IMG/VR virus record: IMGVR_UViG_3300026136_000275
Coordinates: 1-25,190 of that record
From: a virus
DNA length: 25,190 nucleotides
Strand: one strand, 5' to 3'
A model generated the notes under the pieces. It was not told the origin of the DNA. It saw only the letters and a list, made by a program, of their open reading frames with translations, and made no database searches. Shown piece after piece: positions 2,549 to 25,190 of this stretch. A program made the position numbers and the translations under genes. Positions within the stretch are counted from its first letter, which is position 1; each line of letters begins with the position of its first letter.

Positions 2549-2554
2549 TAAAAC

Positions 2555-2560
2555 TATTTA
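2555..2560 (-). promoter_or_regulatory. TAAATA box for the leftward sugar operon
   Basis: Minus-strand TAAATA (plus-strand TATTTA) 6 nt before ATG 2548, in the short gap after the FkbM gene. Confidence 0.5.
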
Positions 2561-2584
2561 ATATGTGTTATTGTGGTGGTAAAA

Positions 2585-4023: not shown

Positions 4024-4033
4024 AGTATTATTT

Positions 4034-4043
4034 TATTTAAATA
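4034..4043. promoter_or_regulatory. Palindromic bidirectional TAAATA element
   Basis: TATTTAAATA is a perfect 10-bp palindrome that gives a TAAATA box to each of two divergent genes: 9 nt before ATG 4053 and 10 nt before ATG 4023. Confidence 0.55.
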
Positions 4044-4052
4044 ATTGACAGT

Positions 4053-6055: not shown

Positions 6056-6071
6056 TAAATATGTATATAAT
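6042..6071 (+). promoter_or_regulatory. Sigma70-like promoter and TAAATA box before 6090
   Basis: TTGATC (6042-6047), 18-nt spacer and an exact TATAAT (6066-6071), with TAAATA at 6056-6061 between them. The start codon is at 6090. The host-type and phage-late-type elements overlap, so either or both may be used. Confidence 0.45.
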
Positions 6072-6089
6072 TATCAAAGGATAAAGTCT

Positions 6090-7004: not shown

Positions 7005-8161
7005 TGATATATCCATTAGCATATTCAACTTGGGGTAAAGAAGAAGTCGATGCAATACAAAAAGTTATTGATACAGATATGTATACCATGGGTAGCCATG
7101 TAAAACAATTTGAACAAGAGTTTGCTGAACTCTTTAATTCACCAAATGCAGTAATGGTCAACTCCGGCTCTAGTGCGAATCTTTTAATGTTAAGTTTATT
7201 GAAATGGAAATATAGACTTACAGGAGATATCATTGTTCCGGTTGTAGGTTGGGCAACAACTTATTTTCCTATTGTACAAAATGGATTTAAAATTAATTTT
7301 GTAGACGTAGACCCAAATACTTGGAACATCGATGTAACAAAGATTGAACAAGCAATCACGCCTAACACTGTTGCAATAATGCCTGTAAACTTACTAGGCA
7401 ATAGTTGTGATTATAAAGCAATAAAAGAAATATGTTTCAAACACAAATTGCTTTTGATTGAAGATAACTGTGAATCAATGGGTGCCAAATTTAACGATCA
7501 ATACACGGGCACATTTGGTTTAGCAGGATCATTCAGTTTCTTTTTCAGTCATCATATACAGACAATGGAAGGTGGTATGGTACTTTGCAAACACAAAGAC
7601 GATGCAGATTATTTGAGAAGTATGAGAGCTCATGGATGGGTTAGAGACTTACCTGATAATTCATCACTGTATAAAAAGACAGGAAACGCATTTAATGATA
7701 ATTTTATATTTGCAACTCCGGGTTATAATTTAAGACCGTTAGAAATGAGTGGTGCTATAGGATCTGTACAACTAAAAAAATGGAACGATATAATGAAAGT
7801 TAGATTAGAAAACACTAAACATTTTTTAAATCTATTTGCAAATAAATCTTGGTGTAGAATACAAAACGAAACAGGAGAAAGCAGTTGGTTTACCTTTGGT
7901 ATTGTGTTAGATGGAGAACTTAAAGGTCGTAGAGAAGAAATAATTAATGCATTAACAAATGCTGGAATACAAAATAGACCACTTGCATCCAGAAACTTTT
8001 TAAAGCAACCTGTAATGCCTAACCTAGATCATATTGTTTCAGGAACAATGGATGCCGCAAACGACATACACGATAACGGATTCTTTGTTGGCAACGGTAG
8101 TATCGATATTAAAGAAGGTATCGATAAAATGTATGAGATAATATCAGGATTTGCAAAGTGA
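7004..8161 (+). CDS. ColD-like PMP-dependent sugar 3-dehydratase (DegT/DnrJ/EryC1/StrS)
   Basis: 385 aa, fold-type I. Cofactor phosphate region NSGSSANL near residue 53, LIEDNCESMG near 151 (the Asp pairs with the pyridine nitrogen). Where ordinary DegT aminotransferases have the Schiff-base lysine, the motif here is SFFFSHHIQTMEGGM, with His183. This Lys-to-His change is the hallmark of ColD and RfbH, which use PMP to remove the 3-hydroxyl of a 4-keto-6-deoxy sugar nucleotide. The single-subunit ColD type seems likelier because no ferredoxin-like partner is visible nearby. Start ATG overlaps the upstream TAA (TAATG) and the end overlaps the next gene as GTGA. Product sugar would be a 3,6-dideoxyhexose or its amino derivative; that part is inference. 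Confidence 0.8.
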   Translation: MIYPLAYSTWGKEEVDAIQKVIDTDMYTMGSHVKQFEQEFAELFNSPNAVMVNSGSSANLLMLSLLKWKYRLTGDIIVPVVGWATTYFPIVQNGFKINFVDVDPNTWNIDVTKIEQAITPNTVAIMPVNLLGNSCDYKAIKEICFKHKLLLIEDNCESMGAKFNDQYTGTFGLAGSFSFFFSHHIQTMEGGMVLCKHKDDADYLRSMRAHGWVRDLPDNSSLYKKTGNAFNDNFIFATPGYNLRPLEMSGAIGSVQLKKWNDIMKVRLENTKHFLNLFANKSWCRIQNETGESSWFTFGIVLDGELKGRREEIINALTNAGIQNRPLASRNFLKQPVMPNLDHIVSGTMDAANDIHDNGFFVGNGSIDIKEGIDKMYEIISGFAK

Positions 8162-9030
8162 AATCATTAACTATCGCAACAACCTGGGGAACGAAATATT
8201 GGCCCAATCCAGTAAAGCCTTGTATAGAAAGCACGATTAAGAATTGGCCTGAACACGCAAAGATATTATTATATCCAGATGATATGTCGCAAAAATTAGA
8301 TTTGCCACGTACAGAATATATTGATTTGTGTAAGGCACAACCAAAATTACAGGAGTTTATTGATAGACATAAAAACAATCCAGAACTAAATCCAAGAATA
8401 AAACAAAATGCCGAAGAACAAAAAGGTTTTGATAAAGACACATCTATATATGTTTACGATGCTGTTAGATTTAGTTATAAAGTTTTTGCCTGTATTGATG
8501 CTTGGCAAAGAACTAAACCTGATATGTTATGGTTTTTAGATGCTGATTTATTAACGTTTGAAAAAATTCCTATGACATGGTTAGAACATATTATTCCTGA
8601 CACTGCCTTTACATCATATTTGGGTAGACCTAAAAAAGGATTTTCAGAAACTGGATATTATGCTTTTAATACAGCACACAAATACGCAGAAGAGTTTTTT
8701 AAAAGATGGGAACAGTATTACACAGAGGATCTATTTTTTAATATACAAAAAGGATTTTTGAATCACTTTCCTATTGCAGGTTACACAGATTCATTTACAT
8801 TTGATGCAGTAAGAATTGAAATGGAGCAGGCAGGTAAAATCAAAAACGAAGATCTTAATGACGGGAGATTTGCGGGTAAAAGAAGAGCAAAACATCCTTT
8901 TATAAATTCGGAACTTGGACAATACATGGATCATATGAAAGGCTTCTCACGTAAATCAAGAATGAGTTCTAAAAGGAGTGATTTAACAACAAAACAAAAC
9001 CACCCATATTGGAAAACCATAAAGGATTAG
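8158..9030 (+). CDS. GT-A-like transferase with DxD motif, twin 2
   Basis: 290 aa starting at GTG, which overlaps the upstream stop as GTGA. It is a clear paralog of 6090-7004: the same opening, FIDRHKNNP, YDAVRFSYKVF, LWFLDADLLTF (DxD at about residues 137-139), YLGRP, HPFINSELGQYMDHMKG, and SSKRSDL before a C-terminal PYW. The two are divergent enough that the duplication is old. It probably has a related donor but another acceptor or position. A 16-nt gap with a TAAATA box follows before the next gene, so it may be the last gene of its unit. Cytoplasmic. Confidence 0.65.
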   Translation: MKSLTIATTWGTKYWPNPVKPCIESTIKNWPEHAKILLYPDDMSQKLDLPRTEYIDLCKAQPKLQEFIDRHKNNPELNPRIKQNAEEQKGFDKDTSIYVYDAVRFSYKVFACIDAWQRTKPDMLWFLDADLLTFEKIPMTWLEHIIPDTAFTSYLGRPKKGFSETGYYAFNTAHKYAEEFFKRWEQYYTEDLFFNIQKGFLNHFPIAGYTDSFTFDAVRIEMEQAGKIKNEDLNDGRFAGKRRAKHPFINSELGQYMDHMKGFSRKSRMSSKRSDLTTKQNHPYWKTIKD

Positions 9031-9035
9031 GTTTG

Positions 9036-9041
9036 TAAATA
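9036..9041 (+). promoter_or_regulatory. TAAATA box before the SDR at 9047
   Basis: TAAATA 5 nt before the ATG, in a 16-nt gap after the previous gene. It would allow an internal start of the sugar operon. Confidence 0.4.
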
Positions 9042-9046
9042 TCGAT

Positions 9047-9982
9047 ATGAAAGCACTTATTACAGGTTGTCAAGGATTTATTGGTAAAAATTTAGCACAA
9101 CATTTAAAGAAACAAGGACATTATGTCGTAGGGATAGACAAGAAACTTAAGGTCGGTGATCCTGTATTTGTTGACGAGTTTATAGGTCACGATATGGAAT
9201 CTCGAATAACAATAGATAACGATTTCGAAAGAGTGTATCATCTTTCTGCAGATGTACCTAACTCAAAACAAGTAGGATCAGCACAGTTAACAACTGGAAG
9301 AAGTAATCCAATACAAACAATTCAAGCAATGGATTTTGCGGCACAAAATAATTCTCATTTTATATATGCTGTGTCGGCTATGATTTACAACACAGACTAT
9401 CAAGGACATAATGGTCCAGACCTAAACGAAGACGAACATATATGGCCTGCTCAACCGGCAGGAAACATTTACGGTATGGAAAAACTTTACAATATGCAAC
9501 TTGCTCAAGAGTACGCAAAAAGTTATCATATGAGAATTTCTCTACCAATATTCCATGCTATGTATGGACCACACTGTGATATTTTTTACAACTCTAAAGT
9601 AGTAGCGGCAACTTGTTTAAAAATTTTACAAGCAGATGATCCCGGAGAAATTGAAATATGGGGAGATGGATCACAGATAAGATCTTTTTGTTACATAGAT
9701 GATCTTATGATTGGTCTTGATAAACTTATCGAGAATGATATTGAAATTCCAATCAATATGGGTTCCGATGAAGCAATAACAATGACACAACTTGCAGATA
9801 TGTTAATCGATATATCAGGAAAAAAAATAAAGAAAAAATATCTACCGGCCGGACCTGCAGGATGTATGAGAAGGAATTCAGACAATACAAAAATAATGAA
9901 ACTTACTGGCTGGAAACCAAACTATCCTCTAGAACAAGGTTTAAAAAATACATTTGAATATGTAAAAAGTCAGGTCAAATGA
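9047..9982 (+). CDS. NAD-dependent sugar epimerase/dehydratase (extended SDR)
   Basis: 311 aa. Rossmann motif ITGCQGFIGKNLAQHL (GxxGxxG) at residues 4-19; catalytic tyrosine and lysine in NIYGMEKLYN near residue 140 (YxxxK), with the upstream YAVSAMIYN supplying the serine. The C-terminal half contains IEIWGDGSQIRSFCYIDD, the same substrate-loop region as in the SDR at 1544, so the two are distant relatives of the GalE/GDP-mannose dehydratase group. A TAAATA box lies 5 nt before the ATG; the end overlaps the following gene as ATGA. It likely supplies a modified NDP-sugar to the adjacent transferases. Exact reaction unknown. Confidence 0.82.
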   Translation: MKALITGCQGFIGKNLAQHLKKQGHYVVGIDKKLKVGDPVFVDEFIGHDMESRITIDNDFERVYHLSADVPNSKQVGSAQLTTGRSNPIQTIQAMDFAAQNNSHFIYAVSAMIYNTDYQGHNGPDLNEDEHIWPAQPAGNIYGMEKLYNMQLAQEYAKSYHMRISLPIFHAMYGPHCDIFYNSKVVAATCLKILQADDPGEIEIWGDGSQIRSFCYIDDLMIGLDKLIENDIEIPINMGSDEAITMTQLADMLIDISGKKIKKKYLPAGPAGCMRRNSDNTKIMKLTGWKPNYPLEQGLKNTFEYVKSQVK

Positions 9983-10857
9983 GAATAGCACTGTATCCGG
10001 AATATTCTAGTTTAAATGGTAGACCGGTATTTGCCGCATTGATTGAACACTTAAAATCCAAAGGTGAGAAAGTTTTTATCAACGAAGATAGAAATTGTGA
10101 TGTAGCCGTTATTTGGTCGGTTCTTTGGCAAGGCAGGATGGAAGCAAACAGGAAGGTATGGGAACAATTTAGAAGCACAGGTAGACCTGTAGTGGTACTG
10201 GAAGTAGGTGGCCTAAGAAGAAATTCATCATTCAAGATGGGCATCAACGGAATAAACAGAGAAGCGGACTTTGCCAACGATACATTTGACGATAAAAGAT
10301 GGCCGTTGTTTAATCATCAATTATTACCGTGGAAACAATCTGGCAATGTTATTGTTATATGTGGACAACATCATAACAGTCATCAGTGGAGAGAAAATCC
10401 TGGAATGAAATCATACTTTAAAAATTGTATAGAAGAAATTCGTAGATATACAGATAAGCCTATTGTTATAAGACCACATCCTAGAAATATTGTGCATAAT
10501 TTTCCTGTAGAAAAATACAAACACGTAAGAGTAAATTTGCCAAAAAGAGATTGGGGTACTTACGATGATACCGATTTTAAAAAAATACTTAAATCGACCT
10601 GGGCCGTGGTAAATCATAGTTCTAATCCTGCCATGGAGGCAGTAATACATGGTATACCGGTATTTGTATCTGAGAAAAGTTTATGTCACGATGTTGGTAA
10701 CACTGATTTATCAGATATAATGCACCCGGCAATGCCGGCTAGACAAAATTGGGCAAATCGTTTAGCATACACTGAATGGTTTACTGAAGAATTTAGAGAA
10801 GGTAAACCTTGGGCAAGAATAAGAAAAAGACTAGAGGAGAAATACATAAAAAAATAA
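9979..10857 (+). CDS. Capsule-type GT-B-like glycosyltransferase, paralog D
   Basis: 292 aa and fourth member of the local family. The shared block is AVVNHSSNPAMEAVIHGIPVF, then DVGNTDLSDIMHP and NRLAYTEWFTEEFREGKPW; the vR motif is VIRPHPRN. The N-terminus (MRIALYPEYSSLNGRPVF) and the VIWSVLW stretch are its own. It overlaps the SDR upstream as ATGA and the next gene as TAATG, so three genes form a tightly coupled set. Of the four copies it is most similar to paralog C by eye (both keep RPHP). Cytoplasmic transferase, donor unknown. Confidence 0.72.
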   Translation: MRIALYPEYSSLNGRPVFAALIEHLKSKGEKVFINEDRNCDVAVIWSVLWQGRMEANRKVWEQFRSTGRPVVVLEVGGLRRNSSFKMGINGINREADFANDTFDDKRWPLFNHQLLPWKQSGNVIVICGQHHNSHQWRENPGMKSYFKNCIEEIRRYTDKPIVIRPHPRNIVHNFPVEKYKHVRVNLPKRDWGTYDDTDFKKILKSTWAVVNHSSNPAMEAVIHGIPVFVSEKSLCHDVGNTDLSDIMHPAMPARQNWANRLAYTEWFTEEFREGKPWARIRKRLEEKYIKK

Positions 10858-11597
10858 TGCAAAAGATTAATATAGGAAGACAGGACCCAGATCAGCCAAT
10901 TGAGTGGACACCATATCAAGGCGAAGAAGTTATCATGAAAATGGTGATTAGAAAAGGACAAAAAATAGAGGAAAGAGAATTTTGTCCAGACAGAGTGAAT
11001 GCTGTGCCTAAAGGAAATGCATACATCATTGGAAATGGACCATCGAGAAAAGATAAGTTGGATTTAGATACACTTAAGAATACAGGACAGACATACGGGT
11101 GTAATGCCTTGTATAGAGATTTTATACCTGATTATTTGTTTATGGTTGATAGATTTATATCTCAAAAAATTGTAGATGATAAAGTATTTGAAAAATGTAT
11201 TTGTTATGCTCCTGCTTTAGAGTTTAACAGATCTAAAAGAAGACTACATTTAATACCTCACAATCCACATTGGATTTCGGGCTCTGCCGCTTTTTGGACT
11301 GCTTGTATGCACGGACACAAAAATATATATTTGATTGGTTTTGATTTTAGAGAATACGGTAAAGATCAATTAAACAACATATACCAGGACACTGACAATT
11401 ACGGACCTAGACACAGTGATACTATATTTGAACCATGGTTACAACAATACAGAAGTATTTGTAAACGAAGACCGTATTGTAAATTTACAGTTGTACATGA
11501 CAATCCACCTGATTACGTACAGGCAATTCCGTTTGAAAATCATAGTGTAATGTCTTATGCCGACTTTATCGGTAAAGTTTTAAACCAGCAGACTTAA
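10857..11597 (+). CDS. GT42/DUF115-like protein, possible glycosyltransferase
   Basis: 246 aa from ATG 10857, which overlaps the preceding TAA. The frame is open to 10809 but that start lies inside the previous gene. Motifs: AYIIGNGPSRKD near residue 58, GCNALYRDFIPDYLFMVD near 80, and GSAAFWTACMHGHKNIYLIGFDF near 140. The order GNGPS / CN / G-x-x-a-x-x-A-x-x-x-G-x-x-x-I-y-L-x-G-x-D-F is that of GT42 sialyltransferase-like and DUF115 proteins, which share a Rossmann-like fold. Either would fit a glycan locus. It closes the rightward sugar operon; its 3' end overlaps the convergent SprT-like gene by 32 nt. Assignment is moderate. Confidence 0.55.
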   Translation: MQKINIGRQDPDQPIEWTPYQGEEVIMKMVIRKGQKIEEREFCPDRVNAVPKGNAYIIGNGPSRKDKLDLDTLKNTGQTYGCNALYRDFIPDYLFMVDRFISQKIVDDKVFEKCICYAPALEFNRSKRRLHLIPHNPHWISGSAAFWTACMHGHKNIYLIGFDFREYGKDQLNNIYQDTDNYGPRHSDTIFEPWLQQYRSICKRRPYCKFTVVHDNPPDYVQAIPFENHSVMSYADFIGKVLNQQT

Positions 11598-12033
11598 ATC
11601 TATCTCTGAACGAATAGAAATTTGCGTTGTGGTTAGAATAAGGATCTTTTAATACAGTCATTTGGTATAGATGTACCATTTCGTGTGCTAACGTTTCAAT
11701 AAAATCTTGCCATTTTGGAAATTTACAATGTAATTCTATTCTGTAAAATACATCGGCCTTGTTGTATGGTATAACTCTTTGATCAAATGTGCCTTTTCTA
11801 CATTGTCTATTATCCCAATCGGCAACACATCTACCCCAGTCATGATGTAATTTTTTAACATAAATCATGGTTGATGGTAATTTGTTATCGAACAGTAGTC
11901 CGTTCAACTTACGATACCAATGGGCACACGCCATACCTGTTGGCTTATATCCCACAACATTTTCTTTCACAGTTAGGGTTCTTTTGAACTGTTTTTTCAA
12001 ATGCTTTTTAGTACTTCTTATTTTTTTAATCAT
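11566..12033 (-). CDS. SprT-like zinc metalloprotein
   Basis: 155 aa. The zincin motif HEMVH (HExxH) is at about residues 117-121 in LAHEMVHLYQ, and a third ligand is likely His135 in SNHNANF, as in SprT/Spartan proteins. The N-terminus is very basic (KK, RTKK patterns), consistent with DNA binding. Relatives are common in T4-like marine phages, and Spartan-type enzymes cut proteins crosslinked to DNA; that role here is by analogy. It is the only minus-strand gene between the sugar and replication blocks, with a TAAATA box about 39 nt upstream and a 32-nt tail-to-tail overlap with the gene before it. Confidence 0.8.
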   Translation of the reverse strand: MIKKIRSTKKHLKKQFKRTLTVKENVVGYKPTGMACAHWYRKLNGLLFDNKLPSTMIYVKKLHHDWGRCVADWDNRQCRKGTFDQRVIPYNKADVFYRIELHCKFPKWQDFIETLAHEMVHLYQMTVLKDPYSNHNANFYSFRDRFKSAGLKLYR

Positions 12034-13446: not shown

Positions 13447-14913
13447 ATGAGTTCTTGTAAATTGGTAATAAAAGACGAAGTAAATGTGAAGTTTGAAAAC
13501 TTAGATCTAAAATGGCGACAAAAATTAGTCAATAAATTTAAGTATCAAATACCATATGCATATCATCTACCTGCTGTTAAGTTAGGAAGATGGGACGGCA
13601 AAATTGCATTCTTTCAAATGGGTGGGTCAACATATCTCAATCTAGTAAACGAAATATTACCAATACTCGAAGCGGGTGGAGTTTATGTAGAACTAGAAGA
13701 CAGAAGAACAAATCATAATTTTGAGTTCCAAGCAATCAACAAAGATTATCTATCACATATCAACTGGCCAGCAAATCACCCAATGGCCGGACAGCCAATA
13801 GAATTAAGAGATTATCAAGTGGAAACAATAAACAAATTTATTGAGAACCCACAAAGCATACAAGAGATCGCCACTGGTGCAGGTAAGACCATCATAACTG
13901 CGGCACTGTGCCAATTGGTCGAACCATATGGACGCACACTTACTATTGTTCCAAATAAAAGTCTCGTCACACAGACAGAAGAAGACTTTCTTGCTTGTAA
14001 CTTAGACACAGGTGTATATTATGGTGACCGTAAAGAAGTTGGAAGATATAATACAATAGCAACTTGGCAAAGTTTGAATGTATTAGAAAAGAAAGCAAAG
14101 AACGAACATAGCACAGAGTTCAAAGAATTTTGCGAAGGTATCAATACAATCATTATCGACGAAGTACATATGGCGAAGGCAGATGTTTTAAAAAGATTAT
14201 TGACAGGTGCTTTTGCACATTGTGGTATACGTTGGGGACTTACAGGCACAGTACCAAAAGAAGAATATGAATTTATGGGAATTAAATGTTCACTCGGAGA
14301 AGTTACAAATAAAATACCTGCAAAGGATTTACAAGACAAAGGAGTACTTGCACAATGTAACGTAAATGTTTTACAGACACAGGATCATCCTATGTTTAAA
14401 AATTATCAAGAAGAACTGAAATGGCTAACTACGGACAGCAACAGAATGACTTGGATAGCACAAACAATAAAAGATATTTCAAGTTCAGGAAATACACTTA
14501 TACTGGTTGATAGAATATCGGCAGGTGAAATATTACAAAAAAAACTAAAAGACTCTGTGTTCATATCAGGGTCAACTAAAAACACAGAAAGGAAAGAACA
14601 CTACGATGAAGTGTCTACAGCACAAAGTAAAATTATTATTGCCACATATGGGGTTGCATCTGTTGGTATTAACATTCCTAGGATATTCAATCTTGTTCTT
14701 ATTGAACCTGGTAAGTCCTTTGTTCGTGTGATACAAAGTATAGGAAGAGGCATACGTAAAGCAGAAGATAAAGATCACGTACAAATCTGGGATATTACAA
14801 GCAGTTGTAAGTTTGCAAAAAGACATCTAACACAAAGAAAAAAGTTTTACAAAGAGGCAAATTATCCGTATAATATAGAAAAAATAGATTATGAAAATCC
14901 TTACACTAGATAA
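13447..14913 (+). CDS. uvsW: UvsW-like superfamily 2 DNA helicase
   Basis: 488 aa, close to T4 UvsW length. N-terminal region (1-110) matches the UvsW DNA-binding domain style (KLGRWDGKIAFF). SF2 motifs in order: Q/RDYQ near residue 122, Walker A ATGAGKT at 142-148, motif II IIIDEVHMAK, motif III GLTGTV, motif V ATYGVASVGINIP and motif VI QSIGRGIRKAE. UvsW rewinds and branch-migrates recombination intermediates and R-loops, and in T4 turns off origin-type initiation. The next gene starts 23 nt inside its 3' end. A TAAAATATA stretch lies 7 nt before the start. Family call is firm. Confidence 0.93.
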   Translation: MSSCKLVIKDEVNVKFENLDLKWRQKLVNKFKYQIPYAYHLPAVKLGRWDGKIAFFQMGGSTYLNLVNEILPILEAGGVYVELEDRRTNHNFEFQAINKDYLSHINWPANHPMAGQPIELRDYQVETINKFIENPQSIQEIATGAGKTIITAALCQLVEPYGRTLTIVPNKSLVTQTEEDFLACNLDTGVYYGDRKEVGRYNTIATWQSLNVLEKKAKNEHSTEFKEFCEGINTIIIDEVHMAKADVLKRLLTGAFAHCGIRWGLTGTVPKEEYEFMGIKCSLGEVTNKIPAKDLQDKGVLAQCNVNVLQTQDHPMFKNYQEELKWLTTDSNRMTWIAQTIKDISSSGNTLILVDRISAGEILQKKLKDSVFISGSTKNTERKEHYDEVSTAQSKIIIATYGVASVGINIPRIFNLVLIEPGKSFVRVIQSIGRGIRKAEDKDHVQIWDITSSCKFAKRHLTQRKKFYKEANYPYNIEKIDYENPYTR

Positions 14914-15394
14914 TATATCTTATAATATAGAAAAAATACCTGAATACGTCGACGACTCTTTAAGGTTCTCGGTACTTGATAATTCAAATCCTGAAGATCC
15001 AGACCATTTTTTTATTCCGTTAATATTTTTAGAAAGTTTCAATGCTCCAGCGGCAGTGTTGCAAATAGGCAAATACAAAATCAAAATGCCATTGGATTGG
15101 AAAATGGTTGTTGGCGAAGCAGAGCAAGGTGAACTTCACGTACTGCCTATAACAAGTTTGAATGACAGAGGATTTGATGCATTCTTGTTCAACCCATTAT
15201 CAAGCGGTAAACCCGAATTTGACAATGTCGATATCATAGATATCTATCAAGAAGTAAAATGGTACTTTCCAAAAATTAAATCTGGACAAATATTATGTGT
15301 ACCTTTAGAAAATAAACCTAAACCACAGTGTGCATATTTTGTAAAAGATATTTCTAGGCAGTGTGAACTTATTGATTACAGTGCAGTATGGTAG
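14891..15394 (+). CDS. Unknown 167-aa protein between UvsW and gp62-like
   Basis: Not recognised. Overlaps the end of uvsW by 23 nt and the next gene by 7 nt, so it is made as part of the replication operon. It is acidic to neutral and rich in beta-type segments: FFIPLIFLESFNAPAAVLQ in the middle and IKSGQILCVPLENKPKPQC near the end. A late tryptophan (SAVW) closes the chain. No transmembrane helix, zinc motif or nucleotide-binding motif is seen. The regular frame, tight overlaps and conserved-looking core argue that it is a real gene. No function can be given. Confidence 0.7.
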   Translation: MKILTLDNISYNIEKIPEYVDDSLRFSVLDNSNPEDPDHFFIPLIFLESFNAPAAVLQIGKYKIKMPLDWKMVVGEAEQGELHVLPITSLNDRGFDAFLFNPLSSGKPEFDNVDIIDIYQEVKWYFPKIKSGQILCVPLENKPKPQCAYFVKDISRQCELIDYSAVW

Positions 15395-15657
15395 GAACAC
15401 GCAAAGGACAGTCTGTTACTATACCTGCTCCTTGTTGTATTATTCCAAATCATAATGATAGAAAGGTTCCGGTTTGGCTTGATAGAGGACAATGGTATCA
15501 AGATTTATTGGAACATTTTCACAACCATAATTACGATGTCCATAAAACAATAATTAAAGAAGGAGAAATTACCATTCGCTTTAACAATAGGAATCATGCT
15601 ATACTATTTTTACTAACTTATGAACAAAGAAATCAAACAGAAGAGGAAATTTTTTGA
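15388..15657 (+). CDS. Unknown 89-aa protein
   Basis: Starts at ATG 15388, overlapping the preceding stop by 7 nt, and ends 38 nt inside the next gene. It contains a Cys-Cys pair in TIPAPCCIIPNHND and aromatic/His-rich YQDLLEHFHNHNYDVH, then a strand-rich tail (EITIRFNNRNHAILFLLTY). The tail reads like a small RNA- or protein-binding alpha/beta fold, but I recognise no family. I looked for similarity to RegA, which often sits by gp62 in T4-like phages, and saw none. Supported as a gene by overlaps on both sides and same-strand context. Confidence 0.6.
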   Translation: MVGTRKGQSVTIPAPCCIIPNHNDRKVPVWLDRGQWYQDLLEHFHNHNYDVHKTIIKEGEITIRFNNRNHAILFLLTYEQRNQTEEEIF

Positions 15658-16078
15658 ACTAAGAAACGGACTCAAAGCAGTCGATTTCCGAAACAAAGAT
15701 TACTATGACAGAATAGATGATCATGAACGATCGTTATATTCTCCTTTCATGCTTATGAGATATGCCTCGAGTGTATCCTCAAAAGATCAATTTTTTGTTG
15801 AACACTATGTAGAGATGATTAATGAATGTGTGAATAAAAATCTTTTCACACTATCAAGCAAACACAAAAAATTATGTTGGATACTAACATCAATGTGTGG
15901 TGCATTACAGCAACAATTCCATCCTTGGATCAAACCAATGAAAAGAGTACAAAATAAAACATTAAAACAGTTGCTCACAATATATCCAAATATGAAAGAA
16001 TCGGATCTCGAAACACTCGATAAGATTATAACCGATAAAGAATTTGAAGAACTATTAGAAGAGCATGGAATCAACTAA
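15620..16078 (+). CDS. gp62-like clamp-loader small subunit
   Basis: 152 aa. The order of FFELRNGL at the start, YSPFMLMRYASS, VEHYVEMIN, a basic KKLCWILTSMCG segment, FHPWIKPMKR and a C-terminal TLKQLLTIYPNMKESDLETL matches what I recall of gp62 from marine T4-like phages (start FFEWR, then YPPF, SPWLK and a C-terminal helix pair). gp62 with gp44 loads the gp45 sliding clamp on DNA. gp44 and gp45 are not in this window. The start overlaps the upstream gene by 38 nt, but no later start codon fits because the FFELR motif begins at residue 11. Overlaps the next gene by 14 nt. The match is by eye. Confidence 0.65.
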   Translation: MNKEIKQKRKFFELRNGLKAVDFRNKDYYDRIDDHERSLYSPFMLMRYASSVSSKDQFFVEHYVEMINECVNKNLFTLSSKHKKLCWILTSMCGALQQQFHPWIKPMKRVQNKTLKQLLTIYPNMKESDLETLDKIITDKEFEELLEEHGIN

Positions 16079-16751
16079 ATTTAAATGTCCTTATTGTGGT
16101 AAGGAATTCACAAGAGAAAGAACATTACAGGTTCATATGTGTGAACCTAAAAGAAGACATCTACAAAAAAACGAAAAATGGGTACAGAATGGCTTTATAG
16201 TATTTCAACGATTTTATGAAATACATCAAAAAAATCATAAAACTAAAACATACGATGAATTTTGTAAATCTGCTTTTTATAATGCATTTGTAAAGTTTGG
16301 CAGATTTATGATGCATATAAATCCAATATATCCTGAAAAGTATATAGACTATGTTATACTATCAAAAATTAAATTAGATCATTGGGCAAGAGAAGATTTG
16401 TATGAGGCTTATCTTGTTGACACACTAAAAGTTGAACCTGTTGAATCTGCTATACAAAGATCAATCACAACAATGATGGATTGGGCAGATGAACAAAATG
16501 CACAATGGTCTGATTACTTTAGATTAGTAAACACAACGAGAGCAGTTCAACATATTCAGAACGGAAAAATGTCTCCGTGGCTGGTTCTTGGTTGTGTTGC
16601 AGGTCAAAAAATGTTACAATCGTTTAGTGACGAACAATTAGATATGGTTGAAAGATTTATTAAACCAGACTATTGGAAAATGAAATTTAAACAATATCCT
16701 GCTGATCATTTATTTGTACAGGAAACAGTTAAAGGAGCAAAAATTGAGTAG
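16065..16751 (+). CDS. Zinc-finger protein of unknown function
   Basis: 228 aa. The first 20 residues form a single C2HC-type zinc finger: CPYCGKEFTRERTLQVHMC (C-x2-C-x12-H-x-C). The rest is helical, with WVQNGFIVFQRFYEIH, a middle DHWAREDLYEAYL and a C-terminal YWKMKFKQYPADHLF. It has no enzyme motif that I can see. As a DNA- or RNA-binding protein in the replication operon, it may control expression or replication. It overlaps the gp62-like gene by 14 nt and the next gene by 8 nt. The C-terminal AKIE sits on the Shine-Dalgarno of the next gene. Confidence 0.8.
   Translation: MESTKFKCPYCGKEFTRERTLQVHMCEPKRRHLQKNEKWVQNGFIVFQRFYEIHQKNHKTKTYDEFCKSAFYNAFVKFGRFMMHINPIYPEKYIDYVILSKIKLDHWAREDLYEAYLVDTLKVEPVESAIQRSITTMMDWADEQNAQWSDYFRLVNTTRAVQHIQNGKMSPWLVLGCVAGQKMLQSFSDEQLDMVERFIKPDYWKMKFKQYPADHLFVQETVKGAKIE
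16731..16737 (+). promoter_or_regulatory. Strong Shine-Dalgarno deciding a TTG start
   Basis: AAAGGAG lies 6 nt before the TTG at 16744, inside the end of the zinc-finger gene. It supports TTG rather than the upstream ATG at 16714, which has no such site. It is one of the best Shine-Dalgarno matches in the window, where many starts have none. Confidence 0.6.
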
Positions 16752-16986
16752 AGTAAAAGTCGAAATAGATGATGAGTTGGATTTTGATCTTGAAGATGGA
16801 GACATGATACTACACATTAAACATAATGGCGATATTGGAAAAGTTTGTATGCCTGACATGAATCCAAAAGTAAAAAATAGTGTTGGCTATCACAAATTAC
16901 TTCAAGTATTAGAAATTTTAAAACCTGGCACAAAAGAAGAATTTATTAAATGGAATGAAAAGAAATTGAAAGGTAGCATACACTAA
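16744..16986 (+). CDS. Small acidic 80-aa protein, TTG start
   Basis: Unknown. I choose TTG 16744 because of the AAAGGAG 6 nt before it; the ATG at 16714 would overlap the previous gene by 38 nt. With TTG the overlap is 8 nt. The protein opens with an acidic run (VEIDDELDFDLEDGD), then a beta-strand pair (MILHIKHNGDIGKVCMPD), and ends with a helix (GYHKLLQVLEILKPG). The stop forms TAATG with the DnaE-like gene downstream, so the two are probably made together. No known domain; an acidic N-terminus could be DNA mimicry or a protein contact, but this is only a guess. Confidence 0.6.
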   Translation: MSRVKVEIDDELDFDLEDGDMILHIKHNGDIGKVCMPDMNPKVKNSVGYHKLLQVLEILKPGTKEEFIKWNEKKLKGSIH

Positions 16987-17576
16987 TGCCTGATGTAGAC
17001 ATAGATTTTTACGATAGAGATGGAGTATTATCATTGTTTAAACATACTCCAGCAACTATTGTAAAAGATGAAATGCACGAAAAACATAAAACAGGAATTT
17101 ACTTCCATGACATTCCTGTTAATCCATCTACAAAACATTCGAGTTTAGATTATAAAAAAGCAGACGAACGAGGATATTTTAAAATTGATTTATTGAATGT
17201 TAACATCTACAAAGACATCAAATCAGAAAAAGAACTTGTTGAACTAATGATACAAGAACCAGATTGGGATATGTTGAAAGATCCTAAAATAGTGGAAAAC
17301 CTTTTTCACCTAAATGGCCATTATAACATTGTGTCAAAACTCGAACCTAAAAACATTGAACAACTTGCGGCTGTACTAGCAATAATACGTCCAGCAAAAA
17401 GACACTTGATGTATAAGGATTGGTTAGATATATTAAAAGAAGTGTGGACGAAGCCGTCTGATGGATCATATTTTTTTAAGAAGTCACACGCAATAGCCTA
17501 TGCTCACGCAATCGTTGTCCAGTTAAATTTGATAGCACGTGATAAATATAGTTTTGATGCGATATCAAAAAACTAG
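16986..17576 (+). CDS. Miniature DnaE-like (Pol III alpha) protein
   Basis: 196 aa. It reads like the polymerase core of bacterial DnaE compressed: residues 2-8 PDVDIDF (DnaE PDxDxDF with the two catalytic Asp, here D5 and D7), FKID at 65-68 (third Asp, D68, as in DnaE KFDFLG), LAAVLAIIRPAKR at 127-139 (like DnaE LFRPGP), and FKKSHAIAYAHA at 164-175 (like FNKSHAAAYA). DnaE itself is about 1100 aa; PHP, beta-binding and OB domains are absent. Start overlaps the upstream stop (TAATG). T4-like phages replicate with family B gp43, so a DnaE remnant in the operon is odd. It may be a small nucleotidyl transferase, a clamp or host-replisome binder, or a decoy. The motif order is seen; function is not. 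Confidence 0.75.
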   Translation: MPDVDIDFYDRDGVLSLFKHTPATIVKDEMHEKHKTGIYFHDIPVNPSTKHSSLDYKKADERGYFKIDLLNVNIYKDIKSEKELVELMIQEPDWDMLKDPKIVENLFHLNGHYNIVSKLEPKNIEQLAAVLAIIRPAKRHLMYKDWLDILKEVWTKPSDGSYFFKKSHAIAYAHAIVVQLNLIARDKYSFDAISKN

Positions 17577-17712
17577 AAAGAAAAAATCCAAAACACGTAC
17601 TAAAAGAAACTCCGCTTCAAAAAAGGATCCATATGGCTATCAGCCGGATAGTCCTTTAACACAACACTATCTTATAACAGGTGCTATACTTCCTGAAAAG
17701 AAGACTAGGTAG
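17557..17712 (+). CDS. Small basic 51-aa ORF
   Basis: Starts at ATG 17557, overlapping the DnaE-like gene by 20 nt in another frame, and ends tail-to-tail with the leftward gene (8-nt overlap). The first 23 residues are almost all Lys/Arg/Thr/Ser (RKKKSKTRTKR), followed by a non-repetitive tail DPYGYQPDSPLTQHYLITG. It fills the otherwise empty stretch between two genes, which favours a real gene. There is no clear Shine-Dalgarno. It could bind nucleic acid. Confidence 0.45.
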   Translation: MRYQKTRKKKSKTRTKRNSASKKDPYGYQPDSPLTQHYLITGAILPEKKTR

Positions 17713-18079
17713 GTTTCCGCATTAATTGAATAGTACGTCTCTTCACCCGTTTCTTCGAAATATCTGATAATCGTACTGTTGGACCATGTGATATTTTAAC
17801 ATCTTTTCCATTTAGTGTAGTCAATGCATATTTGAATGCTTTGAAATCTTGTTTCAAGAAAATGTTTATTGGTAATTTTCTATTGGATTCCCACCACCAA
17901 ACTTCGCCCAAACGTAAAAATTCTTGCTTGTGATCTGCATCGGTAAGTTTATTGTAGTCATACAGGCTGATTACATTGATATCTTGGTTCTGGATAATAC
18001 CAACATATTCAAACTCACCCTTTTGTACAAGCGATAAAAAGGGGAATTTTTTACCTAATTTTTCAAAAATGTCATTCAT
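17705..18079 (-). CDS. Unknown 124-aa protein
   Basis: Leftward gene set inside the rightward replication block, divergent from the virion-like gene at 18112. It is alpha/beta: FPFLSLVQKGEFEYVGIIQNQDINVISLYDY at the start, then EVWWWESNRKLPINIFLK (three Trp in a row) and a very basic C-terminus (KKRVKRRTIQLMRK). The pattern is of a small regulatory or nucleic-acid-binding phage protein, but no family is recognised. The orientation switch means it has its own promoter in the 32-nt gap with 18112. Confidence 0.65.
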   Translation of the reverse strand: MNDIFEKLGKKFPFLSLVQKGEFEYVGIIQNQDINVISLYDYNKLTDADHKQEFLRLGEVWWWESNRKLPINIFLKQDFKAFKYALTTLNGKDVKISHGPTVRLSDISKKRVKRRTIQLMRKPT

Positions 18080-18904: not shown

Positions 18905-19930
18905 ATGAACCTGATCCAGTCGACTATTCTGACATCCTTACCTGCGGGTAAAAAGAAAACTCCTTCTGGATGGATTGCCTTTAATGCCCCTTGTTGTGTT
19001 CATAACGGAGAGAATGCTGACAGAAGAAAACGAGGCGGCATAATGAATAGTCCAGACGGCACACTTTCTTTTCACTGTTTTAATTGCGGATTTAAAACTT
19101 CATACACTCCGGGTAGAAAAATATCTTTAAAAACTAAAAAGTGGATGGCATGGTTGGGCATAGACGATAACACTATCAAGAAAATGGTTATCGAGGCCAT
19201 GCGTTTAGAGGAAGCAGATAAAACAGCAGGAGTTGAAAAGAAAAAATTTATTTCGTTTAATAAAAAATCTTTGCCAAAAAATTCACACAAACTTGATATT
19301 TGGTTAGAAAAATATCTTAAGAAAGATCTAACTGACAAACAGCATAGATATATTGATTCATTGTTAAACTACCTTAAGGACAGAGGCATTGGTCCGGATT
19401 GGTATAATTTTATGTATTCACCTGATATGACATTTGATATTAACAAAAGAATTATTATACCTTTTTACTGGAAGGGTGATGTTGTTGGTTATACAGGAAG
19501 ACTGTTTGAAAAAATTGACAAACTAAAATACTATACAGATGTACAACCAGGATATGTGTTCAATATGGATGTACAAGATTGGTCAAGACAATTTGTAATC
19601 GTAACCGAAGGACCATTTGATGCTATTTCCATTTCTGGAGTCAGTATACTTGGATCAGAGGTAAATGATACACAAAGAGAACTTATTGATAACCTAAACA
19701 GAAAGGTAATTGTAGTTCCAGATAAAGATAAAGCAGGGTCTAAACTTATCGAACAAGCAATAGAGTATAGATGGTCCGTTGCTTTTCCAGAATGGGGACA
19801 AGGAGTTGACGATGTCGCCGATGCTGTGTTAAAATATGGGAGATTGTTTACAATGCAATCAATATTAAAATCAACAGAGTCGAATAGACTTAAAATAGAT
19901 TTAAAGAGAAAGATGTATGGCAGAGTATAG
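18905..19930 (+). CDS. gp61: T4-type DNA primase gp61
   Basis: 341 aa, close to T4 gp61 (about 340). N-terminal zinc-binding module: Cys30-Cys31 and His33 (APCCVHNG) with Cys58 and Cys61 (FHCFNCGF). Middle Toprim domain: VTEGPFDAIS near residue 230 (glutamate) and VPDKDKAG near 273 (DxD), then a C-terminal PEWGQGVDDVADAV. It lays short RNA primers on the lagging strand and works with gp41 in the primosome; the gene order gp61-gp41 here supports this. End overlaps gp41 by 14 nt. TAAAATATA lies 4 nt before the start. Confidence 0.92.
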   Translation: MNLIQSTILTSLPAGKKKTPSGWIAFNAPCCVHNGENADRRKRGGIMNSPDGTLSFHCFNCGFKTSYTPGRKISLKTKKWMAWLGIDDNTIKKMVIEAMRLEEADKTAGVEKKKFISFNKKSLPKNSHKLDIWLEKYLKKDLTDKQHRYIDSLLNYLKDRGIGPDWYNFMYSPDMTFDINKRIIIPFYWKGDVVGYTGRLFEKIDKLKYYTDVQPGYVFNMDVQDWSRQFVIVTEGPFDAISISGVSILGSEVNDTQRELIDNLNRKVIVVPDKDKAGSKLIEQAIEYRWSVAFPEWGQGVDDVADAVLKYGRLFTMQSILKSTESNRLKIDLKRKMYGRV

Positions 19931-21356
19931 TTTTGATGTTCAGAAGTTGTATTTAGAAATGTTTTTGGCAGATGCCGAAGCATTTGCAAGAGCATCTAAC
20001 ATTTTTAATCCAAACAGTTTTGATAGAAAACTACAACCAATTGCAAAATTTATTAAAGACTATGTCGAAGAATATAAAATTATGCCAGAGGTTGAACAAG
20101 TAAATGCAAAACACGATATTAATTTAAAAGGCACAAACGATATAGATGCCTCTCATTTCAATTGGTTACTAGATGAGTTCGAAACGTTTTCCAGACACAA
20201 GGCACTAGAAAGTGCAATACTTCAATCGGCTGACTTACTCGAAAGAGGTGATTATGCTCCAGTAGAGGACATGGTCAAAAGTGCAGTCAACATAGGATTG
20301 ACTCGTGATATTGGTACAGACTACTTTGAAGATCCAAAAGGTAGATTAGAACTTTTAAAAAGTTCAAACGGACAAGTCAGCACAGGCTGGACTAATCTCG
20401 ACAAGAAACTGTTCGGTGGATTTAACCGAGGTGAACTAAACATTTTTGCAGGCGGATCAGGTGCTGGAAAAAGTTTATTTCTACAGAATCTTGCAGTTAA
20501 TTGGGCACTGGCTGGCTTGAATGTTGTATACATATCTTTTGAATTATCTGAAGTACTAGCGGCTATGAGGATAGATGCTATGACAACTAACATTCCAACA
20601 AAACAAGTAATGAAATCAATGGACGATGTTGAAATGAAAGTTAAGATGTTAAAGAAAAAAGCAGGTAACTTACAGTTGAAATACTTGCCAAGTGGTTGTA
20701 ATATTTTAGATGTTAAAACTTACATCAAAGAACTAGAACTAAAAAATAAAAAGAAGATCGATGCAGTACTGATAGATTATCTTGACTTAATGATGCCGAA
20801 AAGCAAAAAAGTATCTCCTGCAGACTTGTTTATTAAAGACAAGTATGTGTCTGAAGAACTGAGAAACTTTGCAGTAGAATCACAATGTTTACTTGCAACG
20901 GCGTCACAGTTGAATAGAGCAAGTGTTGAAGAAATAGAATTTGATCATTCTCACATAGCAGGCGGATTATCTAAAATACAAACAGCAGATAACGTAATTG
21001 GTATATTCACAAGCAGAGCGATGAGAGAACGTGGCAGATATCAAATTCAGTTTATGAAAACTAGATCAAGTTCGGGTGTTGGACAAAAAGTTGATTTAGA
21101 ATTCGATATCGATACATTAAGAATTAGAAGTTTAGAAGAAGATGAATCAAACAATTATGTTACTAAACAATCAGGTGCTGTATTTGATCAACTTAAACAA
21201 AAATCCAAAGTAACACCATCTATACCAAAAGATGCACAACCATCTGAACCCGATCCAACTAAAGGTGATACTATCACTGGTAAAGTTAAAGCAGATGTTC
21301 AAAGCAATAAGTTAAGACAACTGCTTAACGAACTACATTCAGACGAAGAGCAGTAG
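19917..21356 (+). CDS. gp41: T4-type replicative helicase gp41 (DnaB-like)
   Basis: 479 aa, typical of gp41. RecA-like core begins near residue 155: Walker A GGSGAGKS at about 179-186, Walker B AVLIDYLDLMMP near 284-295, followed by ATASQLNRAS (sensor Q) and KTRSSSGVGQK (arginine region). N-terminal 130 residues are helical, as in the gp41/DnaB N-domain that stacks the hexamer. The C-terminal 70 residues are low-complexity and acidic (SEPDPTKGD, LHSDEEQ), the region that contacts helicase loader or primase in T4. Unwinds the fork 5'-3' and couples to the primase encoded upstream. Confidence 0.94.
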   Translation: MAEYSFDVQKLYLEMFLADAEAFARASNIFNPNSFDRKLQPIAKFIKDYVEEYKIMPEVEQVNAKHDINLKGTNDIDASHFNWLLDEFETFSRHKALESAILQSADLLERGDYAPVEDMVKSAVNIGLTRDIGTDYFEDPKGRLELLKSSNGQVSTGWTNLDKKLFGGFNRGELNIFAGGSGAGKSLFLQNLAVNWALAGLNVVYISFELSEVLAAMRIDAMTTNIPTKQVMKSMDDVEMKVKMLKKKAGNLQLKYLPSGCNILDVKTYIKELELKNKKKIDAVLIDYLDLMMPKSKKVSPADLFIKDKYVSEELRNFAVESQCLLATASQLNRASVEEIEFDHSHIAGGLSKIQTADNVIGIFTSRAMRERGRYQIQFMKTRSSSGVGQKVDLEFDIDTLRIRSLEEDESNNYVTKQSGAVFDQLKQKSKVTPSIPKDAQPSEPDPTKGDTITGKVKADVQSNKLRQLLNELHSDEEQ

Positions 21357-22212: not shown

Positions 22213-23415
22213 ATGAGAGATTTATCGAAAGACAAATATTTTTGTTATCATCCATTTGAGACATTGACAATAACAGCAGATGGTAATGCACAACCTTGTC
22301 CTGTGTGGAATATGTCTGATAAATTTCCCATTGCCGACCTCAATCAAAAAGAAGTCACCATAGACGAGATATTTAATTCAGAGCCCCTCAAGCGGATGCG
22401 AGAACAGATGTCCAGCGGAGAGGTGGTGTCCGCCTGCAATTCTTGCCACAGGAGAGAACGGGTCAAGATGGACAGCCAGAGATTGAGATACGGCAGGCGT
22501 AGATCCAAAAAAGAAACACACAGCCTGAAGCAGATAGAAATCAATTTCAGCAATCAGTGTAACCTGGCGTGTGCCATGTGTAATCACAACCATAGTTCTG
22601 GTTGGTATCAGCAGGAAAAATCTCTACCCGAGTCTCTGAGGAAAGACATGGATCTCAACAAACACTGGCCTTCCAAACCCTACAAGTATTTTTCGTTATC
22701 CAAAAAATTTGTTGACAGCATAGTGGATCGTTTAGACACACTGGAAGTGTTAATGATCAAGGGCGGCGAGCCGTTGTACGATAAAAACTGTTTGAATCTA
22801 CTGAACCGCATCAGTGAAATCAAACCAGATCTAAAGATAGTGTTGGTCAGCAACATCACACACATACCTCAAAAAACTCTGGACACCCTATCAAAACTTA
22901 CCAACGTGGAGTTGAACATCAGCATAGACGGAACAGGAAAGATATACGAATGGATCAGGGGATATTCATTTGACAAGATAGTGAGCAACTATAAAAAAAT
23001 ATGTGAGTTGAAACTTGATGCTGTGTATGTAAACGTCACTGTCAGTATCTACAATGTGTTCAATGTTGTTGACACAATAAAATATTTCAAGGACCTATCA
23101 CCCAACAACTACGGCGGCAGTTTTAACTTTGTGTGGGAACCTTTTATGTCTGCATTGACTTTGTTACCGGATACTCATAAAGATAGAATCATTAACGAAA
23201 TCGTTCCGGAATTGAAAGAACTCGGTTGTGTTCCGGATGACCAAATTGATTCATACGAAAATTACGTTTCCAAAAAATATGACAATCTCCACAGTGCTTT
23301 GGTAACAACAATGGATAAAACTCAAAAAGTTTTTCGAGATTACACCAATTGGCTAAACACAATTAGAGGTATACAAATACAAGACGAAGCAAGTTATTTG
23401 AAAGAATTAATGTAA
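22213..23415 (+). CDS. Radical SAM enzyme with N-terminal twitch/SPASM-like cluster
   Basis: 400 aa. Auxiliary cluster first: Cys11 (FCYHPF), Cys29 (QPCPVW), Cys75 and Cys78 (ACNSCHRRE), an arrangement I know from twitch-domain radical SAM proteins in marine phages. The radical SAM site is SNQCNLACAMC, Cys116-Cys120-Cys123 (CX3CX2C), followed by IKGGEPL (GGE motif) near residue 183 and a later NISIDG. It should cleave SAM to make a radical. The target is unknown: twitch members act on sugars, nucleotides or peptides. It is first of three coupled genes (TAATG with the next). Its middle third (22380-22900) is about 60% GC in places, unlike the rest of the window. Confidence 0.85.
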   Translation: MRDLSKDKYFCYHPFETLTITADGNAQPCPVWNMSDKFPIADLNQKEVTIDEIFNSEPLKRMREQMSSGEVVSACNSCHRRERVKMDSQRLRYGRRRSKKETHSLKQIEINFSNQCNLACAMCNHNHSSGWYQQEKSLPESLRKDMDLNKHWPSKPYKYFSLSKKFVDSIVDRLDTLEVLMIKGGEPLYDKNCLNLLNRISEIKPDLKIVLVSNITHIPQKTLDTLSKLTNVELNISIDGTGKIYEWIRGYSFDKIVSNYKKICELKLDAVYVNVTVSIYNVFNVVDTIKYFKDLSPNNYGGSFNFVWEPFMSALTLLPDTHKDRIINEIVPELKELGCVPDDQIDSYENYVSKKYDNLHSALVTTMDKTQKVFRDYTNWLNTIRGIQIQDEASYLKELM

Positions 23416-24293
23416 TGGATATTGAAAAATTAGAATCGTTGATAGATAGGAAAGCAAAAAGGAAACGTCCTATGTATGATCAAGAGATGCGTACATATCT
23501 AAGGACAATCGACTACTCCTGGAATTACCCGATAGATCATTATGTTCAAACATTCACTGAATGGTTAACATCTCACAAAACTAATAAATTAATTAACTTG
23601 GATGCATTTCCGGACAGACGAATCATACTAGGTGTCACGCAGGCCATCAATGATCTGTATATGATGTATCCCAATCGAGTTGTAATACTTGATGGCGAAT
23701 ATTTTTATCATGATCAATTGTTCCCTGATATAAAAGTGAGGACCCTGGAAACTTTAATCAACGGTGATGTGCTGTTAATCTCAATGCCTTTCTGTGGAGA
23801 GAACTACGGAGTACATCCTAAGATGCCCGAGATACTGCAAAAATGTTTAGATGAAAATATTCCTGTACACATCGATGCGGCATGGTATCCTTGTAGCAGA
23901 GGAATAACTTTTGATTTAGATCATCCTGCAATACAGTCAGTCAGTTGTAGTCTAACCAAAGCATATGGCATAAGTGAACATCGTTCGGGAGTGAGATATT
24001 CTAGAGCACCTATGCCAGGATATGTTACTTGGATGACCGACAATGATTCTATTCCGTCAAAGCATAATTTTTTTACTGGAATAAAATTTATGCAGAAATT
24101 TGGTCCAGACTATTGGTGGAACAAATACGGAGAACACTATGATTTTATTTTAGAAAATTGTAAAAATTTAGCACCCAGTCCTGCAATTCACGTTGCATTT
24201 TCTACCGACGACAAAGGAAATGTTATAAAAGCGGTGCCAATGAAGGAAGCATTGTTGTACGTAAATACGTACAGTAATGGAACAACAACCTAA
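23415..24293 (+). CDS. Short PLP-dependent fold-type I enzyme
   Basis: 292 aa. The central PLP features are IDAAWYPC (Asp154, which pairs with the pyridine ring) and SLTKAYG (Lys182, the Schiff-base lysine), with GDVLLISMPFCGENYG before them in the usual place. Fold-type I aminotransferases are typically 350-430 aa; here the C-terminal domain seems cut short, though the frame ends normally and overlaps the next gene by 17 nt. It lies between two radical SAM genes and is coupled to both, which suggests an aminotransferase, lyase or decarboxylase working on the same substrate. The C-terminal region (KAVPMKEALLYVNTYSNG) is not typical. Function beyond PLP use is not known. Confidence 0.75.
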   Translation: MDIEKLESLIDRKAKRKRPMYDQEMRTYLRTIDYSWNYPIDHYVQTFTEWLTSHKTNKLINLDAFPDRRIILGVTQAINDLYMMYPNRVVILDGEYFYHDQLFPDIKVRTLETLINGDVLLISMPFCGENYGVHPKMPEILQKCLDENIPVHIDAAWYPCSRGITFDLDHPAIQSVSCSLTKAYGISEHRSGVRYSRAPMPGYVTWMTDNDSIPSKHNFFTGIKFMQKFGPDYWWNKYGEHYDFILENCKNLAPSPAIHVAFSTDDKGNVIKAVPMKEALLYVNTYSNGTTT

Positions 24294-25190
24294 AATAAAT
24301 CGTATACAATGGCTGTTTGGAAATGTGTGCAACTATGATTGTTCGTATTGTCCAACAATTTTACATTCTAATGATTCCAAATTTGATGACCCTAACATAA
24401 TTGCAAACGCAGTTCAATACACAGTTTCTTCTTTGAGAATGTTAGATAGAGAACCGTCCTTTGAATTCGTAGGTGGTGAGCCAACATTGAATCCAGGATT
24501 ACTATCTATTTGTCAACGTATGGGTAATCAAAAGTTAAGCAACAAGTTAACCACAAACGGAAGTGCCAGCATAGAATGGTGGGAAGAATATTACATTTAT
24601 TTTTCACAAGTTGAAATAAGTTATCACACAGAATTTGCAAATCTAGAACATATCGAAAAAGTAATTGATTTTTTGATTGAAAAAGAACTTGCAGTAAAAG
24701 TAATGGTACATTGTACACACCTCGACGAACAATGGAACAAAGCAATACACGTTTATCAAATATTTAAAAACAAAGGATACAAAACAGAATTAAAACTTTT
24801 GTTTTCAAACTTTACCAAAGGTTTTCAATTTTATCCTTACAAAACATATCAGTTAAAATACTATTTCGAAGAGAAAGGACAAGACTGGGATCCAGAACAA
24901 ACAATGTATACTGGAAATTTAAAATACGATGGATACACTCACGCAAGGCATGACATGAATAGAGAATTTGTAGATAAAAAAGATGGAAGAATAAAAAACA
25001 ACTGGAATTATAAAGGTTGGAGATGCAACGCCGGTGTTGATCAATTTGTTGTTGATAAAAGAGGAAACGTAAGACGTGGCTGGTGTGGACAAGGAGAAAG
25101 ATTAGGAAATGTTCTTCTAAGAAATGTGCAATGGCATCAAAAGGCTATCAAGTGTGATTTAGACGTGTGCCGGAATGGCTTCGACCAATT
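24277..25190 (+). CDS. Second radical SAM/SPASM enzyme, cut by the window end
   Basis: At least 304 codons without a stop, running off the right edge. ATG 24277 overlaps the PLP gene by 17 nt. Radical SAM site VCNYDCSYCPTI (Cys18-Cys22-Cys25), then FVGGEPTLNPG, KLTTNGS and a SPASM-like cysteine set near the edge (WRCNAGVDQF, GWCGQGERLGNV, KCDLDVCRNGF), so cluster-binding cysteines follow at the C-terminus. This differs from the first enzyme, whose auxiliary cysteines are N-terminal. A role in a small tailoring pathway is inferred from the coupled genes. Confidence 0.8.
   Translation, partial: MEQQPKINRIQWLFGNVCNYDCSYCPTILHSNDSKFDDPNIIANAVQYTVSSLRMLDREPSFEFVGGEPTLNPGLLSICQRMGNQKLSNKLTTNGSASIEWWEEYYIYFSQVEISYHTEFANLEHIEKVIDFLIEKELAVKVMVHCTHLDEQWNKAIHVYQIFKNKGYKTELKLLFSNFTKGFQFYPYKTYQLKYYFEEKGQDWDPEQTMYTGNLKYDGYTHARHDMNREFVDKKDGRIKNNWNYKGWRCNAGVDQFVVDKRGNVRRGWCGQGERLGNVLLRNVQWHQKAIKCDLDVCRNGFDQ

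Follow-up and report, generated by a model that had tools for sequence, protein, structure and literature searches.

A DnaE homologue in a T4-type phage replication operon is the predicted C-terminal half of a split minimal DNA polymerase III alpha

The window analyzed here, a stretch of 25,190 nucleotides of viral DNA (IMG/VR record IMGVR_UViG_3300026136_000275), encodes a 196-residue homologue of the C-family polymerase DnaE within a T4-type replication operon. Comparison with related viruses indicates that this protein is one half of an enzyme (the C half) and that the palm half carrying the GRGSS motif (the N half) is encoded by a separate conserved gene. We consider it probable that the C half is the metal-binding half of a two-subunit minimal Pol III alpha nucleotidyltransferase, with the N half supplied from a distant gene. 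This split-enzyme reading of the gene is already published: Iyer et al. 2021 (PMC7824862) predicted from genomes a split minimal Pol III alpha in “group 2.2” jumbo phages. A preceding sequence-only reading of the window, which did not know whether relatives had been studied, is superseded on that point by their computational description.

The 196-residue protein is a DnaE homologue

Translation of the open reading frame confirmed a 196-residue protein that begins MPDVDIDF and carries DnaE motifs in the DnaE order, as the sequence-only reading had proposed, with D5 and D7 followed by D68 in FKID, by IIRPAKR and by FKKSHAIAYA at residues 164 to 173 (Table 1). D5 and D7 correspond to E. coli DnaE D403 and D405 in the numbering used in this analysis and to D401 and D403 in that of the literature, the same residues of MPDFDVDF.

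A single-sequence phmmer search with the 196-residue protein returned no PDB match, and Pfam gave a sub-threshold fingers match alone (E = 0.015). When a profile of 48 C-half family sequences was used, 7 of the 8 PDB hits were Pol III alpha (best E value, 0.0044), and the weak matches ran in DnaE order through MPDIDIDF, the region of the third aspartate, the fingers and YAFNKSHAAGY. Alignment to DnaE sequences by hhalign gave a weak probability (8 to 24%) and nonetheless paired the right residues, setting GYFKIDLLNV on E. coli GLVKFDFLGL and hence D68 on D555. An AlphaFold2 model of the C half (pLDDT 90.4) placed D5 and D7 on the strand formed by residues 4 to 8 and D68 on that formed by residues 67 to 71. 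In a Foldseek search with this model, ranks 1 to 13 were all C-family polymerases, nearly all of them Pol III alpha, with probabilities up to 1.00; the TM-scores to whole DnaE were modest (0.33 to 0.52, with large rmsd) because the model covers just a part of that large protein. The profile and structure searches against Pol III alpha, both proposed as checks before the analysis, thus returned the expected family, and homology to Pol III alpha is supported alike by profile, by fold and by the collinear motifs.

Like bacterial DnaE (E. coli, 1160 residues), the C half has the DxD motif, the third aspartate, the fingers RP and KSHA in collinear order. In contrast to E. coli DnaE, it lacks a PHP domain, to which the 196-residue protein gave no match, the GS (NTP-binding) motif, which is absent from the open reading frame and located in the phrog_11127 proteins, the thumb-length insert, the RRAMGKKK finger segment and anything after KSHA. 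The compressed motif spacing noticed earlier was borne out: about 163 residues separate DxD from KSHA, compared to about 357 in E. coli DnaE. Within this stretch, the distance from DxD to the third aspartate is about 61 residues versus about 150 in DnaE, and that from IRP to KSHA is 31 versus about 119. RRAMGKKK was found in none of 156 C-half family members, whereas a single-chain DnaE of the same virus group retains RRAFAKK.

This domain content bears on the proposal that the C half acts as a binder of, or decoy for, Pol III partners of the host (clamp, tau, epsilon) and thereby subverts the host replisome. While the homology of the C half, which is solely to host DnaE, would suit such a role, the protein has no PHP domain, ends just after KSHA without a counterpart of the DnaE C-terminal modules, retains its catalytic residues and lies within the phage's own replication operon. 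We rejected the decoy on domain content and regard it as highly improbable; the earlier suggestion of a binder of host Pol III partners goes with it.

Table 1. Coordinates of the C half, its motifs and neighboring genes in the window, and of the single-chain DnaE in related loci
Feature	Position	Strand	Basis
UvsW-type helicase	13447..14913	+	profile matches, synteny
167-aa conserved protein, no assigned function	14891..15394	+	phrog_11279 (1e-44), synteny
152-aa protein, conserved neighbor	15620..16078	+	phrog_11758 (2e-15), synteny
C2H2 zinc-finger protein	16065..16751	+	PF00096, phrog_11058 (1e-60); position shared by 8 sequenced jumbo phages
90-aa acidic protein	16714..16986	+	open reading frame directly before the C half
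Predicted C half of split minimal Pol III alpha, 196 aa	16986..17576	+	phrog_11778, collinear PDB Pol III alpha matches, AlphaFold2 and Foldseek
PDVDIDF motif, predicted catalytic D5 and D7	16989..17009	+	aligns to MPDIDIDF / PDFDVDF of solved Pol III alpha
FKID motif, K66 and D68 (E. coli D555)	17178..17189	+	invariance; hhalign onto E. coli VKFD 552-555
IIRPAKR, residues 133-139, fingers segment (E. coli LFRPGPL 637-643)	17382..17402	+	R135, P136, K138 invariant
FKKSHAIAYAHA, fingers motif (E. coli FNKSHSAAYA 756-765)	17475..17510	+	H168, Y172 invariant
124-aa opposite-strand gene adjoining the C half	17705..18079	-	position kept in 8 sequenced jumbo phages
gp61-type primase	18905..19930	+	Toprim, phrog_47 (3e-36)
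gp41 / DnaB-type helicase	19917..21356	+	PF03796 (4e-22), phrog_19 (2e-72)
Single-chain DnaE (also carried by L007, L043, L053, L060, L062, L072, L081, L239, L261, L281)	L041:16091-17815

The C half belongs to a large family under purifying selection

The protein matched phrog_11778, which PHROGs labels “DNA polymerase,” over its full length (7.4e-65, residues 3 to 187). By tblastn, homologues were detected in 90 jumbo-phage records, including RaK2, Asteriusvirus, PA5oct-type phages, Atu_ph07, Phosso, XacN1, SCTP-2 and others; 87 of these 90 matches span at least 80% of the protein, every identity is below 60%, and the 40 matches listed range from 36.6 to 54%. Compared with the proteins of Atu_ph07, Phosso and PA5oct-type phages, to which it is 52 to 54% identical, the window C half represents a marine metagenomic lineage. 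In IMG/VR, at least 591 loci are related to it. Among 74 distinct C-half sequences, D3, D5, D7, K66 and D68 are invariant, as are R135, P136, K138, H168 and Y172. Given the profile match, the 90 records, the IMG/VR loci and the invariant residues, the family lies far beyond chance similarity. Purifying selection on the C half is strong; in one related locus (L005), for example, dN was 0.096 and dS was 1.16. The split enzyme is common, each half being present on hundreds of virus contigs, and sequenced phages that carry it infect E. coli, Klebsiella, Pseudomonas, Agrobacterium and other hosts. With a distribution this wide and hosts such as E. coli, a laboratory test would be simple to arrange.

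The C half lies in a conserved replication operon

The placement of a DnaE-like protein in a T4-type replication operon, put forward in the sequence-only reading, is upheld by the homology and by the UvsW, gp61 and gp41 neighbors. The conserved order runs from UvsW through the phrog_11279 and phrog_11758 proteins, the zinc-finger protein and, in most genomes, a small gene to the C half, and continues with the opposite-strand 124-residue gene, a 260-residue protein, the gp61 primase and the gp41 helicase. The core of this order is common to 8 sequenced phages with Agrobacterium, Sinorhizobium, Pseudomonas, Klebsiella, Salicola, Vibrio, Serratia and E. coli hosts; in the synteny comparison, the Vibrio phage gave no detected homologue of the 260-residue protein. 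For XacN1 and RAS14, the polymerase gene was the sole match within the shorter stretch compared. The start codon of the C half overlaps the stop codon of the upstream 90-residue gene (TAATG), an arrangement that suggests translational coupling, and among the genomes compared for synteny, a homologue of the 90-residue protein was detected only in two marine relatives. The 152-residue neighbor might be a gp62-type clamp-loader small subunit, an assignment that we offer tentatively, together with its possible helical character. Pfam gave no match for the 124-residue gene, which lies antisense inside the forward replication operon.

Farther from the operon, positions 11566 to 12033 on the minus strand encode an SprT-like zinc metalloprotease (PF10263). 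As judged from translations, positions 1 to 11600 contain glycosyltransferase-, nucleotide-sugar epimerase- and aminotransferase-like genes. Positions 22213 to 25190 encode two radical-SAM proteins (PF04055), one with a SPASM domain and the other below the cutoff.

In relatives, the N half is a separate gene that ends where the C half begins

The palm of C-family polymerases is of the Pol-beta type and binds the nucleotide triphosphate through a GS motif located upstream of DxD. In jumbo phages this motif lies in the phrog_11127 proteins, which were present in all 11 sequenced genomes tested. In Phosso, the N half at 97210 to 97743 matched PF07733 (5e-12, profile positions 21 to 95), and the C half lies far from it, at 321328 to 321903. 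GRGSS is invariant among 58 diverse N-half sequences. The PDB matches of an N-half profile were to Pol III alpha only and ended at E. coli DnaE residues 392 to 393, hhalign extended the N half over residues 322 to 396, and a structural model (pLDDT 91.5) retrieved Pol III alpha or PolC at each of Foldseek ranks 1 to 17.

The two proteins are cut at a fixed site. In 74 of 80 viral loci, the N protein terminates exactly 33 residues beyond the first residue of GRGS, and the C protein starts 0 to 6 residues before DxDxD in all 156 cases. In E. coli DnaE, FERFLN begins at residue 388 and MPDFDVDF at residue 399; the N half ends at the equivalent of about residue 392 to 396 and the C half begins at that of about residue 399. 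From this spacing, the N and C proteins abut without overlap.

Since the C half starts at the DxD strand and the GS motif lies on a second gene, it is not a self-contained polymerase. The earlier description of a “miniature DnaE polymerase-like protein” therefore holds for the DnaE homology and fails for self-sufficiency, the GRGSS half being a separate gene in 11 of 11 phages and the two chains abutting. By the same evidence, an active mini-nucleotidyltransferase formed by the 196-residue protein alone, which the retained metal-binding aspartates would favor, is the least probable reading we considered, as all sequenced genomes tested encode the NTP-binding palm half in a conserved gene of its own.

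The halves also occupy separate neighborhoods, the C half with UvsW, gp61 and gp41 and the N half with gp44. In Phosso, 121Q and one marine contig, the N half is near a GroES-like gene and a gp44-type clamp-loader gene; we observed the order N half, GroES-like co-chaperonin, gp44-type clamp loader at L337:10001-16433, L096:4779-7343 and L083:5211-9309.

Co-occurrence of the two halves and a family-B polymerase

Among 7 N-bearing records of at least 228 kb, 6 were found to contain the C half; among 4 C-bearing records of 180 to 365 kb, 3 were found to contain the N half. No fusion of N and C, and no fetched stretch (up to about 30 kb) with both halves, was seen among 374 loci. A family-B polymerase, which the sequence-only reading expected of T4-like phages, is carried by Phosso and by the records of 19 of 20 further relatives; none was recognized within the 25-kb window, itself a genome fragment. 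One 359-kb record (IMGVR_UViG_3300035698_035310, the record of L145; G010 in our set) had the N half and a family-B polymerase and no detected C half, which could reflect a fragmentary record, divergence of the C half or its true loss.

PF07733 had no match in the window phage's own record, and because that record is a fragment of just 25 kb, the N half is not shown in this phage's genome. Nor was the N half found in a 91-kb relative, the longest record of the window's C clade, no member of which was linked to an N half on one contig; records of the N clade (36 to 103 kb) were without a C half. The matching marine N clade occurred in 23 of the 64 metagenomes of the window's C clade, and an unselected N list occurred in 5. 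Such sharing of metagenomes is only suggestive of a tie between the marine N clade and the window's C clade.

A proposed two-chain nucleotidyltransferase and its alternatives

We propose that the N half, encoded far off beside the gp44 clamp loader, would supply the GRGSS half of the palm that binds NTP phosphates, and that the two chains would assemble into a single Pol-beta-type palm. The DxD strand and D68 would then bind two metal ions while the N half held the incoming nucleotide triphosphate. Reduced fingers would be formed by the IRPxK and KKSHAxxYA helices. The split enzyme may thus transfer nucleotides in phage DNA replication or repair beside the family-B replicase. Physical assembly, catalysis and the role beside the family-B polymerase are parts of this proposal that we infer.

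The loss of the thumb-length insert and the RRAMGKKK finger segment makes polymerase activity uncertain, and owing to these missing DnaE parts our confidence in an active polymerase is lower than that in the DnaE identity; a helper, a different mode of nucleotide binding or a non-polymerase role must be considered for the split pair. One such role is that of a structural or regulatory replisome subunit, in which a palm-like complex of N and C is no longer a polymerase. The same missing parts would fit this role, as would the possibility that the family-B polymerase performs bulk synthesis, but the three catalytic aspartates and GRGSS are invariant down to 31 to 40% overall identity, a conservation that an inactive scaffold would not need. 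We consider an inactive complex unlikely.

Returning to the two-subunit nucleotidyltransferase, a bolder form of it is conceivable, although we hold it only tentatively: the pair may be an active heterodimer of palm and fingers remnant, devoid of PHP, thumb and RRAMGKKK, that serves a dedicated step next to the family-B polymerase, with a third, single-chain DnaE enzyme in part of the marine clade. If true, the pair would be smaller than, and mechanistically unlike, the known C-family polymerases. An active pair, with chains of about 175 and 195 residues, would constitute the smallest known C-family polymerase core, would reveal which elements the bacterial replicase can do without and would offer a testable model for the origin of the bacterial replicase, as Iyer et al. 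proposed.

Relation to published descriptions

By our own matching, PHROG 11778 corresponds to the C unit and PHROG 11127 to the N unit of the enzyme of Iyer et al. The window protein shares the same C unit by profile (7e-65), and its relatives share a family-B polymerase, T4-type replication genes and a distant gene for the N unit; unlike the published system, some close relatives of the window add a second, single-chain DnaE without a PHP domain. A truncated “Pol III alpha” is annotated in phages CBB (PMC5259590) and Atu_ph07 (PMC6102473) of the same phage group, and the passages on it do not present it as an enzyme made from two genes. At 172 residues, the CBB piece is probably the N half. 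PF07733 was reported in 51.9% of a marine jumbo-phage cluster (PMC9123017), whose PF07733 proteins probably include the N half. In the literature searched, we found no experimental test of the split Pol III alpha, including for DNA copying, and no description of the fixed cut site, the separate neighborhoods of the halves, the loss of the thumb-length insert and RRAMGKKK or the second single-chain DnaE.

Other forms of DnaE in related phages

A separate single-chain DnaE without a PHP domain was present in 13 of 80 close relatives, and in 6 of the 28 that have at least 7 kb downstream. It lies shortly downstream of gp41 and is 564 to 578 residues long where complete, some copies running off the contig. 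In these close marine relatives, its GS, DxD, D and RRAxxKK motifs are intact. Its best phage match was in a 484-kb uncultured phage (38.6%), in which the split halves were not detected. It was absent from the 10 kb downstream in a sister of the window (L004, 99% identical). Carriers would have the split mini Pol III, the single-chain Pol III and, probably, a family-B polymerase.

In Tenacibaculum phage Larrie (Cbastvirus, ON950054.1), DnaE is encoded by two adjacent genes (L097:7146-10726), with PF07733 divided at profile positions 98/100. An intein was considered as the cause of this split, and Pfam showed no intein domain. The cut in the Larrie enzyme (FERFLN / LPDIDSDF) falls in the loop at which the jumbo-phage mini enzyme is also divided, but the Larrie enzyme differs from the latter in being full size, with PHP and HhH domains, in the adjacency of its halves and in an N protein that continues for about 50 extra residues past the cut.
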